From: Thermoguttaceae bacterium
GTDB taxonomy: Bacteria; Planctomycetota; Planctomycetia; Pirellulales; Thermoguttaceae
DNA length: 64,000 nucleotides
NCBI GenBank assembly: GCA_017447745.1
Contig: JAFSMW010000059.1
Coordinates: 1-64,000 of the forward strand
Direction: 5' to 3'
The notes beneath the pieces are model-generated. The model was not told the DNA's origin. It worked only from the letters and a program-made list of their open reading frames with translations, and did not search any database. The translations under genes and the position numbers were made by a program. Shown in pieces: positions 3,433 to 54,925 of this stretch (positions within the stretch are counted from its first letter, which is position 1; the number at the start of each line of letters is the position of its first letter).

Positions 3433-5565
3433 ATGGCAGACCTGTCTCGCATTAACACTCTGTTTTATCCGAAAAGCATTGCCGTCATCGGCGCGTCCAC
3501 GAAAGTCGGAACCTGCGGTAACGACATCGTCAAAAACCTGAAGGCGACGTTCAGTGGCGACATCTATCCGATCAACCCCAAAGCTCCTGAAATCTGCGGT
3601 TTGAAGGCTTACACCTCCGTTTTGGAAGTTCCGGGCGACATTGATCTGGCTGTTATTTCCGTAGCCGCTGGATTCGTTCTGGGCGTTGTCGATCAGTGCG
3701 TTGAAAAAGGCGTTAAAGCCATCGTCTGCATTACAGCCGGATTCAAAGAAATCGGCGGCGAAGGCGTTGAGCTGGAAAAGCAGTTCCAGGCGAAAGTCAA
3801 GGCGGCGAACATTCCGTTGGTCGGTCCGAACTGCTTGGGCGTTATCAACGCGGAATCGGACGCGTGCTACAACGCATCCTTTGCCAACCAGACCCCGCTT
3901 TCCGGCTCGCTGGCGTTTGTTAGCCAGTCCGGCGCTTTGTGCACGTCCGTTTTGGACTTCGCCGCTCAGCGTGAAATGGGATTCTCCAAGTTCGTCTCCT
4001 TCGGCAACAAGGCTGACGTCAACGAAGTTGACCTGCTCAACTATCTGGCGGACGACGACAAAACCAAGGTCGTTGCAATGTATTTGGAAGCTATCGGCGA
4101 CGGCGAAGGGTTCACCCAGGCGGTTCGCAGACTTCTGTGGGAAAAGCACAAGCCGGTTTTGATTCTCAAGTCCGGTCGTTCCGCCGCTGGCGCGAAAGCC
4201 GTTTCGTCACACACGGGTTCTTTGGCTGGCAACGACGCCGTTTACGAAGCTCTGCTCAAGCAGTCCGGCGCCATCCGCGTTGATTCCATTGAACAGCTCT
4301 TCGACTACGCCGCTCTGTTCTGCAATCAGCCGCTTCCGAAGGGCAACCGCTTGGCGATTATCACCAACGCCGGAGGTCCTGGCATCATGGCGACCGACGC
4401 TTCAGAACGCGTTGGCTTGACGTTGGCGACGCTGTCCGACGAAACCAAAGCTACGTTGAGAGAAAAGCTCCCGGCAGCCGCGTCCGTCCGCAACCCGGTT
4501 GACGTCCTTGGCGACGCCAAACACGATCGTTACGCCGACGCTGTTACAGTCGTCATGTCTGATCCGGACGTTGATATGGGACTGGTTATTCTTACCCCGC
4601 AGTCCATGACCGACACCGACGAAATCGGCAAGATCATTCCTGAAGTTGCCAAGACGTTGGGTAAACCGGTTGTCTGCGCGTTCATGGGCGCTGAATCCGT
4701 CAAAGTCGGAGCCGCCAACCTTCGCGCGGGAAACGTCCCGAACTACGCCTTCCCGGAAAACGCCATCGGCGCTTTGGCTGCTGGCTACAACCTCACTCAG
4801 ACCATTGCTCAGTCCGCTGACAACTCCACGCCGACCATTGCTGGCGCAGATTCCGCCAAGTGCGCTGAACTGATCAAAGAAAAGCTGGGCGACAACGATT
4901 CTGTTTACCTGACTCAGGCGGAAGCTCGTCCGCTGTTTGCCTGCTACGGCATGCCGTTGCTCAAGTCCGCCGTTGTCAGATCCGCAGACGAAGCCGCTGC
5001 TGTCGTTGGCGAATGGGGCGTTACCGTCGTTATGAAAGTCATGTCGGACGACGTCAAACACAAGTTCGACGCTGGCGGAGTTCTGCTCAACATCACCGGA
5101 GCTGACGCCGCGCGCGACGGATACAACAAGATTTACGAGAACATCGCCAAGAACGTCCCCGGCGCCAAGATCGACTCGATTCTTATCGAACAGATGGCTG
5201 CCAAGGGAACGGAAGTCATTCTCGGATGCAACCGCGACGCCAAGTTCGGTCCGTTGGTCATGTTCGGCATGGGCGGCACAACCGCTGAACTGATGAAAGA
5301 CGTTCAGTTCCGCCTCGCCCCGATGAGCCAGTACTGGATTCACTCCATGCTGGAAAACACCAAGGTTTACAAGCTCATGAACAACTACCGCGGTCTGGGT
5401 CAGCACGACTTGGCGGCTCTGGAAGACGCCCTGACTCGTCTTTCCGTCATGGTTGCCGAAAACCCGGAAATTGCCGAGCTGGACATCAACCCGCTTATCG
5501 TCCACGCCGAAGGACAGGGCTGCTCGCTGGCTGACAGCCGTATTGTTCTCAAGAAAGTCAAATAA
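3433..5565 (+). CDS. ADP-forming acetate/acyl-CoA ligase, fused alpha-beta chain
   Basis: A 710-residue enzyme that would interconvert acyl-CoA, ADP and phosphate with the free acid, CoA and ATP. The order is CoA-binding domain (SIAVIGAS at about 14-21, then GPNCLG), succinyl-CoA ligase-like domains with the phospho-histidine loop SHTGSLAGNDA (His near 258-259), and a C-terminal ATP-grasp domain (about 490-710). Length and order fit the one-chain AcdAB type. Such enzymes can make ATP from acetyl-CoA in fermenters or activate acids, so the direction is open. It stands alone on its strand. The coding sequence is unusually regular, with frequent AAG, GTT and GCC codons, and a strong ribosome site is missing; high expression is a guess from codon use only. 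Confidence 0.9.
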   Translation: MADLSRINTLFYPKSIAVIGASTKVGTCGNDIVKNLKATFSGDIYPINPKAPEICGLKAYTSVLEVPGDIDLAVISVAAGFVLGVVDQCVEKGVKAIVCITAGFKEIGGEGVELEKQFQAKVKAANIPLVGPNCLGVINAESDACYNASFANQTPLSGSLAFVSQSGALCTSVLDFAAQREMGFSKFVSFGNKADVNEVDLLNYLADDDKTKVVAMYLEAIGDGEGFTQAVRRLLWEKHKPVLILKSGRSAAGAKAVSSHTGSLAGNDAVYEALLKQSGAIRVDSIEQLFDYAALFCNQPLPKGNRLAIITNAGGPGIMATDASERVGLTLATLSDETKATLREKLPAAASVRNPVDVLGDAKHDRYADAVTVVMSDPDVDMGLVILTPQSMTDTDEIGKIIPEVAKTLGKPVVCAFMGAESVKVGAANLRAGNVPNYAFPENAIGALAAGYNLTQTIAQSADNSTPTIAGADSAKCAELIKEKLGDNDSVYLTQAEARPLFACYGMPLLKSAVVRSADEAAAVVGEWGVTVVMKVMSDDVKHKFDAGGVLLNITGADAARDGYNKIYENIAKNVPGAKIDSILIEQMAAKGTEVILGCNRDAKFGPLVMFGMGGTTAELMKDVQFRLAPMSQYWIHSMLENTKVYKLMNNYRGLGQHDLAALEDALTRLSVMVAENPEIAELDINPLIVHAEGQGCSLADSRIVLKKVK

Positions 5566-5990: not shown

Positions 5991-6480
5991 GTAGAACCGC
6001 ATAGCGGTTCAATGTTTCTAGCCGTGGGTGAAACCCACGGAAGAAAGAAAAACAATAATAAAAAAATCGTCAAACACTCTTTTTCTCTTGCTCCTTTACG
6101 GGGCAAGAGAAAAAGATACTGCGACGATTGCAAACCTTTCGCAGCGTGCATAACAAAACGACGCAGCCGAAAACCTTCCCCGGATGGACTCAGCCTTCGG
6201 AGTCCAACTTGACGGCTACGCCGTCAAGGAAATAGCGGAAGCCTCCAAAAACTAAAGAACGTGGAAAGCCCGTCTGACCTGCTGGTTCGCGGACATTCTG
6301 TCCGCCGAAGAAAACAAGACCCGCACACGCACTGCGACGAAACCGAAAATCTTACTGGATCGCGGACGTAAGTCCGCAACAGAAATTGCGGAAGCCCCAG
6401 AAATCTACGAACGCGAAAAACACTCAAGTGACAATTCAAGCAACCTCACGTTGAGCCGAGAAGGGGATGTAACTGGATCG
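5991..6480 (+). repeat. Left arm of a hairpin array that brackets a gene
   Basis: In order: GAACCGC-ATA-GCGGTTC (5994-6010), CCGTGGGT-GAA-ACCCACGG (6022-6040), a large hairpin with 14-bp arms TCTTTTTCTCTTGC (6078-6091) and its complement (6103-6116), GGACTC...GAGTCC (6185-6204), TTGACGGC-TAC-GCCGTCAA (6209-6227), a GCGGAC...GTCCGC hairpin near 6286-6302, and GCGGAC-GTAA-GTCCGC (6362-6377). The same elements in the same order, apart from the large hairpin, occur inverted at 7203-7697. Confidence 0.75.
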
Positions 6481-16929: not shown

Positions 16930-17170
16930 AGCGTTCCGCTAGAACCGCTTTAGCGGTTCAATTTTAATAGCCGTGAGTGAAACCCACGGACAAAATGATA
17001 CGAAAATAATAAAATAATCGACAAATACCCTTTTCTTCCTCTCCCTCACGCCAGACGTGAGGGAGAGGAAGAAAAGGGATTGACTCGATTAGATATGAGG
17101 GGTGATCGTTTCGCCGTCCGTAGACTAAAGTCGACGGTTATAGAAATGGCGTCTCTTCGAGACGCGATCC
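16930..17170 (+). repeat. Composite hairpin module, copy 2
   Basis: In order: GAACCGCT-TT-AGCGGTTC (16942-16959), CCGTGAGT-GAA-ACCCACGG (16971-16989), a perfect 23-bp hairpin (17028-17050 with 17056-17078, top CACG-CCAGA-CGTG), a GTAGACT..AGTCGAC segment (about 17114-17136), and GCGTCTC-TTC-GAGACGC (17149-17165). The unit at 54646-54869 has the same parts in inverted order, and the one at 5994-6116 shares the first three. Confidence 0.8.
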
Positions 17171-17398
17171 TATATTCATCTTATCATTTTTCGCAAGAAA
17201 TATTTGCGTTCATCCTCAGATTTTTGAAGGGAAGTGCATACTTGAATTATTTCTGAAAAATAGTAGAATAAATAATAGCGAGAGGCAAACGTCAGGCGAC
17301 AGCTTATGTTTACATATTCGCTTGGACAAACCCAAAAGAATCATTTTCCAAATTATCAAGCCCTCTCGCGGAACGTACATTTTTTTCAAGTATTTGTT
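17171..17398. other. gcvPB leader region
   Basis: An AT-rich leader with no gene; the reading frame of gcvPB is open from 17306, but the upstream 31 codons are not typical of the family. No glycine riboswitch was recognised. Confidence 0.45.
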
Positions 17399-25355: not shown

Positions 25356-25390
25356 GCTGAGAGTAGTTATAATATAGAGAAGAAAAAATC

Positions 25391-25600
25391 GTAGCCCACG
25401 CCTTTAGGCGTGGGATCAAATGCGACAAAAATAATATTATAACGCACAAATTCCAATCCCTTCCCCGCTCCATCAGGAGCGGGGAAGGGATTGGAAGGGA
25501 AGCGTTCGGGGAGAGAAGCCTTTGTTTAATCCCCCAGATAAATCTGGGGGCTACGAATTTTGAATAGTTTTTATTCCCCACGTCTAAAGACGTGGGAACA
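25391..25600. repeat. REP-like hairpin array between relB and hsdR
   Basis: GTAG then CCCACGCC-TTTA-GGCGTGGG (25391-25414), a perfect 21-bp hairpin (25451-25471 with 25476-25496, loop ATCA), CCCCCAGA-TAAA-TCTGGGGG then CTAC (25531-25554), and CCCACGTC-TAAA-GACGTGGG (25577-25596). The outer elements have GTAG next to the hairpin in opposite orientation, as in REP pairs. No RAYT transposase gene is in the window. Confidence 0.72.
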
Positions 25601-54456: not shown

Positions 54457-54645
54457 AGTTCTATAAGTAAATAGCAATTGGTAAAAAATAATTCCCGCAA
54501 AGCGACTTTCCCGCCTCGCGACCTCATATCTTACTATATATTATATACTTTTTTTTAAGAAATACCAGTAGGGAGCAAAAAATTTTAGAAATATGGGTGC
54601 ACGCAAATTTTTCTTGCGAAAATAGAAAAAATGAGAAGCTGAATC
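54457..54645. other. der leader region, AT-rich
   Basis: No gene seen. A weak -10-like ATTATA (54540-54545, read on the minus strand as TATAAT) might serve der, but no -35 box stands out. Confidence 0.4.
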
Positions 54646-54925
54646 GCGTCTCGAAGAGACGCCATTTCTATAACCGTCGACTTTAGTCTACGGATTGAGA
54701 AACGCTCTATGCTGTCTCCTAATCGAGTCCGTCTCTTTTCTTCCTCTCCCCGGCGTCTACGACGCCGGGGAGAGGAAGAAAAGAGTATTTGTCGATTTCT
54801 TTTTTCGTTATTCTTTAAGTCCGTGGGTTAAAACCCACGGCTAGAAACATTGAACCGCTAACGCGGTTCTATGCGGGCGACACGCCCGCGAACCGGACTC
54901 AACCATCTGCAATCGCCAATCTAAT
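54646..54925 (-). repeat. Composite hairpin module, inverted copy 3
   Basis: GCGTCTC-GAA-GAGACGC (54646-54662), ACCGTCGACTTTAGTCTACGG (about 54674-54694), a perfect 25-bp hairpin (54733-54757 with 54761-54785, loop TAC), CCGTGGGT-TAAA-ACCCACGG (54821-54840), GAACCGC-TAAC-GCGGTTC (54852-54869) and GCGGGCG-ACA-CGCCCGC (54873-54889). It is the 16930-17170 module in reverse orientation. Confidence 0.8.

Follow-up and report, generated by a model that had tools for sequence, protein, structure and literature searches.

What kind of element carries a long central hairpin whose bases differ from copy to copy while its arms remain able to pair, and what keeps those arms complementary? The question arises from three composite hairpin modules in the window, by which we mean the whole stretch of 64,000 nucleotides analysed here. 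The window is contig C14 of a 4.35-Mb draft genome (own genome, G000). The Der GTPase encoded next to one of the modules is 92% identical to that of Thermoguttaceae RGIG2232 from goat duodenum and 91% identical to that of RUG11551, and we therefore place the host among the uncultured gut (rumen) planctomycetes. The features of the window copies are as follows.

16941..17215, plus strand: whole inserted element copy, ends approximate (same two-gene interval empty in the relatives G001, G002 and G003)
16942..16959, plus strand: hairpin 1 of unit A, GAACCGC...GCGGTTC (sequence and fold)
16970..16989, plus strand: hairpin 2 of unit A, GCCGTGAGTGAAACCCACGG (sequence and fold)
17017..17021, plus strand: left foot ATCGA; the CAAATA loop comes next (sequence, alignment and anchor search)
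17028..17050, plus strand: central hairpin, left arm of 23 nt (sequence and fold)
17056..17078, plus strand: central hairpin, right arm of 23 nt (sequence and fold)
17085..17089, plus strand: right foot TCGAT (sequence and alignment)
17118..17137, plus strand: hairpin of the inverted unit B, CCGTAGACTAAAGTCGACGG, in which almost every copy has an A/G mismatch (sequence, copies and fold)
17149..17165, plus strand: outer hairpin of the inverted unit B, GCGTCTCTTCGAGACGC (sequence and fold)
17192..17215, minus strand: right terminal inverted repeat, three mismatches against GGGTGCRCGCAAATNTTTCYTGCA (terminal-repeat scan)
54646..54869, minus strand: second full copy, with unit A, foot, 25-bp stem and inverted unit B (site empty in L037 and L050)
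54595..54618, plus strand: terminal inverted repeat of the 54646 copy (terminal-repeat scan)
5994..6130, plus strand: partial or variant copy, with unit A, foot ATCGT/ACGAT and a 17-bp stem, 3' unit absent
25390..25555, plus strand: copy of a second family, GTAG-tagged, with the same plan of foot and long hairpin

All three modules named in the preliminary description were recovered. Folded as single-stranded DNA, they reach z-scores of -11.3 (16941-17165), -10.9 (5994-6130) and -11.8 (54646-54869, minus strand), and for each of them none of 200 shuffles was equally stable. Their general layout is a double-hairpin unit, a 5-bp foot, a hairpin of 14-24 bp, the foot again and an inverted double-hairpin unit. 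Unit A consists of GAACCGC..GCGGTTC, a linker and GCCGTGGG..CCCACGG, and unit B of AACCCC.GGGGTT, CATTTCTATA and CCGGcGGTT..AACCtCCGG. Inverting a unit B with other stem bases gives the 3' unit. The units are separated by the foot (ATCGA/TCGAT), the CAAATA loop and the long hairpin. The common order and flanks first attributed to the modules, and their fully paired stems of 14, 23 and 25 bp, hold for the 16942 copy (23 bp) and the 54646 copy (25 bp), but the stem of the 5994 copy measures 17 bp with one T.G pair, and no 3' unit was found within 90 bases past its foot. The foot ATCGT/ACGAT of this copy, which recurs in several others, is altered at two positions and still pairs.

Copies of the module are numerous in the own genome and confined almost entirely to its genus. 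Using 16930-17170 as the query, we obtained at least 63 matches in the own genome; since 40 of the 230 first-look candidates were scored, and copies without both feet are missed, copy numbers given here are lower bounds. A search of 40 genomes, the own one included, returned 34 strong matches in the own genome and 28 (G001), 22 and 29 in three congeners, with two weak partial matches in one other genus and no match in 35 genomes. For the analysis of the stem, copies were selected by foot anchors and neighbouring units, without use of pairing. Looser anchors gave 260 and 509 candidates, and a stricter filter kept 78; removal of a coding false match at window position 3525 and re-anchoring of L149 left 77 copies (family 1), distributed as 36 in G000, 16 in G001, 9 in G002 and 16 in G003. 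The 5' unit is of type A in 34 of them, of type B in 41 and unassigned in 2, and the combinations A-stem-B', B-stem-B' and A-stem-A' are all present. Because A-stem-A' copies exist (L173, L176 and L181), the A-stem-B' form found at 16942 looks like a chimera.

Is the module a fixed gene or does it move? At 16941-17215, the same two genes are found without the element in G001, G002 and G003, and the junctions coincide with the start of unit A on the left and the terminal repeat on the right. The site of the 54646 copy, upstream of der, is likewise empty in two relatives (L037 and L050). Sites that are occupied in one genome and empty in its sister species identify the module as a mobile element rather than a fixed RNA gene. 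The preliminary description thus did not recognise its modules as copies of a mobile palindromic element.

Part of this mobility bears the marks of cut-and-paste transposition. Among the loci examined, we found 18 elements of 120-450 bp with terminal repeats. In 8 of the 18, the 9-bp flanks match at eight or more of nine positions, compared with 0 of 306 swapped pairs, and the repeats are exact at L308, L311, L314 and L181. The other 10 fall below 8/9, one of them (L004) having an exact 10-bp duplication outside the 9-bp register; no target duplication is evident at the 16941-17215 copy. A loose scan detected both terminal repeats in 11 of the 77 family 1 copies. Terminal inverted repeats and target duplications, the hallmarks of a MITE, are therefore confined to a subset of copies, and some of the 18 elements hold other central stems within the same plan. 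Y1 transposition is not known to make 9-bp target duplications, and a putative DDE transposase may move this subset. A search for an autonomous DDE element with the terminal-repeat ends (GGGTGCACGCAAAT) returned none in the four draft genomes, only short-spaced inverted pairs. The hairpin module is found in both orientations, and with another central stem, in terminal-repeat elements of G001 (L308, L310 and L314). A 145-bp terminal-repeat element at L191:1380-1524 contains no long hairpin.

Transposases of another kind are encoded between the copies. The own genome has six matches to PF01797. One of these genes (L033, a TnpA gene) has a B-stem-B' copy on either side; the same is true of the 99% identical ortholog in G003, and an 88% relative in G002 has one copy downstream. 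L032 is preceded by A units and followed by inverted A' units, and L031 lies between two copies of the second family. L031, L032 and L033 score 94, 73 and 80 bits against the IS200/IS605 model NF033573 (cut-off 55) and fall short of the RAYT model NF047646. A TnpA gene of the IS200/IS605 type between element copies is thus found three times (L033, the G003 ortholog and L031). The L033-type TnpA was not found in the G001 draft, despite its 28 element matches. Of 25 genomes searched in the family, 21 have PF01797, so its presence alone explains little. Such a TnpA may recognise the hairpins as folded single-stranded DNA. Separately, two Y1 transposase-type proteins (L034 and L035) are flanked by a further family of hairpin repeats, GCGGGCG..CGCCCGC. 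The NCBIfam RAYT model does match the L034 protein, whose gene is surrounded by other repeats.

The second family follows a related plan: CGTAGCCCACGCC..GGCGTGGG, an AT-rich spacer, the foot AACGC, a long variable hairpin, AAGCGTT and CCCCCAGATAAATCTGGGGGCTACG. It is tagged by GTAG and has 45 matches in the own genome, one of them in the window (25390-25555). Its ends are nearly invariant and its stem is variable, and it has its own transposase (L031) between two copies on contig C235. At the left foot the two families look alike, over a stretch too short to prove a common origin. We tentatively raise the idea, rather unlikely in our judgement, that foot, loop and long hairpin form a distinct functional domain which two otherwise different families of hairpin repeats have in common (left-foot sequences ATCGACAAATACCC and AACGCACAAATCCC), with a separate TnpA for each family. 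Such a domain would serve single-stranded transposition as a third site of recognition or processing, defined by structure only; in part of the family it would be carried within a cut-and-paste MITE and so give one element two mobility routes.

Pairing of the central stem was assessed across both families. In the 77 copies of family 1, 1638 of 1690 arm pairs (97%) are Watson-Crick and 52 are not, 68 stems are distinct, and 42 copies are perfectly paired; the pairing score is 20.3 for a copy's own arms and about half of that, 10.9, when arms are swapped between copies. Family 2 was represented by 27 of 29 segments (one overlapping wrong start and one segment without a right foot were left out), with 531 of 544 arm pairs Watson-Crick, 13 not, and scores of 19.0 for own and 8.8 for swapped arms. 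The alignment of these 27 sequences has a covariation score of 0.375, compared with 0.155 when shuffled, a value reached by 0 of 500 shuffles; 15 pairs changed on both sides, and slid versions score at most 0.166. A family 1 subgroup (35 of 76 distinct sequences, 97.4% paired) scores 0.168 against 0.087 shuffled, again reached by 0 of 500; its further pair types are not exceptional (77 of 500 shuffles). Stems one edit apart per arm differ symmetrically in 18 cases and in a single arm in 5 (p = 0.011, treating copies as independent). The symmetric cases include five transversions and three length changes, the latter partly dependent on where arm ends were drawn, and arm length varies from 14 to 24 with pairing kept. 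The covariation of the stem arms is real, as the preliminary description had read from three copies and proposed to examine by collecting more.

A long hairpin is also the rule when copies are chosen by the left anchor ATCGACAAATACY alone, which has 33 exact copies in the own genome. Thirty of these were examined and gave 28 different sites followed by 60 nt or more; five of them belong to a single tandem tract, and another three arose by chance and do not lead into an element. With the tract counted once, 20 of 21 element sites run into a long hairpin, compared with 2 of 400 random 72-mers of the window, and at the remaining site (L017/L349) the hairpin is shortened and imperfect. Further copies with non-complementary stems, which would have spoken against the original observation, are thus rare among the anchor-selected sites. 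The central stem of L014 is partly broken. At L274:1837-1914, the 13-base left foot sequence CATCGACAAATAC is repeated six times head-to-tail, immediately 5' of a central hairpin.

What causes the covariation is a separate matter. A selected single RNA strand should tolerate G.T mismatches more than A.C mismatches. Family 1 contains 27 of the former and 15 of the latter (p = 0.088), but family 2 points the other way (3 to 6), and the pooled counts of 30 and 21 (p = 0.26) reveal no strand bias; nothing in the mismatches therefore favours RNA over DNA, and RNA-level selection read from their asymmetry is unsupported in the pooled counts. We consider it improbable that the stem is a selected RNA structure (a small RNA, an mRNA stabiliser or a terminator) whose usefulness spread the repeat. 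The strong fold of all three modules and the position of 69 of 74 copies outside long open frames agree with such a role, as does the family 1 excess taken alone. However, where frames could be called to either side of a copy (48 cases), divergent frames enclose it 15 times and convergent frames only 4 times, and the T run sits within the 5' arm instead of 3' of the hairpin, so this is not a standard terminator. The window has no Rfam match at gathering thresholds, and identity with a known RNA family was rejected on this ground. The element may tend to insert next to hairpins that are already there: a hairpin precedes 29 of 55 located units, compared with 14 of 299 control positions, but many of these hairpins are the element's own parts.

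Template switching can perfect palindromes without any selection, and blocks of sequence can be exchanged between copies. Switching of this kind has been described at quasipalindromes (PMC7202029, available text). A purely mutational origin of the covariation, by template switching or by gene conversion of whole stems with the stem itself unselected, is a serious possibility to which we give somewhat less than even chances; it concerns the cause alone and is compatible with a mobile element. Symmetric changes by transversion (5 of 18) or in length (3 of 18) are in line with it, as are the variable arm length and the mismatches without strand bias. Orthologous copies give a mixed picture. The L030/L245 site (flanks 88-92% identical) differs by many matched changes in both arms, again as this origin predicts, whereas the L013/L161 pair and, with one matching flank, the downstream copies of L021/L193 each carry one uncompensated base difference in the stem, indicating that correction of one arm by the other is not immediate. 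Among the pairs alike in both flanks, which include L013/L161 and L030/L245, the arms are identical at L012/L153, in the upstream copies of L021/L193 and at L169/L238. Also against a purely mutational origin, nearly every copy retains both the sequence and the mismatch of the hairpin CCGTAGACTAAAGTCGACGG, which has not been made perfect. Orthologous copies and mismatches together cannot separate selection, template switching and exchange between copies. The preliminary description was thus right about the conserved pairing, but selection of the structure as DNA or RNA is not established as its cause. The stem may be kept paired at the DNA level because its arms are corrected against each other, because unpaired copies spread less, or both.

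Taken as a whole, the element probably belongs to the general MITE or REP-dimer kind of non-autonomous, palindromic mobile DNA, with two inverted double-hairpin units that flank a long hairpin on a short foot. The closest known systems are REPINs, in which, in the available text of Bertels and Rainey 2011 (PMC3116915), inverted repeat units enclose a hairpin-folding spacer, compensatory changes are common, and a link to tyrosine transposases is drawn. All of these are shared here: two inverted REP-like units pair around the spacer in the B-stem-B' and A-stem-A' copies, the arms covary, and transposase genes lie between copies. The element is nevertheless unlikely to be a true REPIN, in which a RAYT moves a REP pair. 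Its units are double hairpins, GTAG is absent beside the hairpins of units A and B and occurs only in family 2, the spacer is a foot with a separate hairpin of 14-24 bp, and a subset of copies has 9-bp target duplications. The enzymes adjoining the copies (L031-L033) fit IS200/IS605 TnpA, and we rejected a plain REPIN/RAYT assignment because they fail the RAYT model.

GTAG REP dimers with structured spacers are known in Planctomycetes, and REPtrons and TIRtrons are tyrosine transposase genes flanked by repeats or double palindromic terminal repeats (Di Nocera et al. 2013, PMC3733652). The likeness extends to the GTAG-tagged family 2; however, spacers in the available part of that source have complementary ends or small stem-loops, whereas most copies here have a foot and a long hairpin, and the same part describes no 9-bp duplications such as those of our subset. 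TnpA-REP reads folded single strands, bulge included (PMC8266576, available text), and nearly all copies here keep the A/G mismatch in CCGTAGACTAAAGTCGACGG. Bacterial MITEs resemble the element in being short and non-coding and, for the subset, in terminal inverted repeats with a 9-bp target duplication, but the interior here consists of nested hairpin units like those flanking tyrosine transposase genes, and many copies have no terminal repeats. PATEs of Haloquadratum, likened here by description and not by sequence, are reportedly palindrome-associated transposable elements of the IS200/IS605 type, non-autonomous and bounded by palindromes. The nested element was not found in the literature covered, incompletely, on REPs in Planctomycetes or on MITEs with these enzymes.

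Covariation of hairpin arms is itself already known, having been published for REPINs. The novelty lies in the nested plan, with a foot and long hairpin between two double-hairpin units, together with its chimeric combinations and its two mobility signatures. In two families with tens of copies each, the long stem changes its bases freely and stays paired, which makes them a good natural test of selection versus template-switching repair of palindromes in mobile DNA. In this uncultured gut lineage, single-strand (TnpA) and cut-and-paste (target-duplicating) signatures are joined in one nested element.
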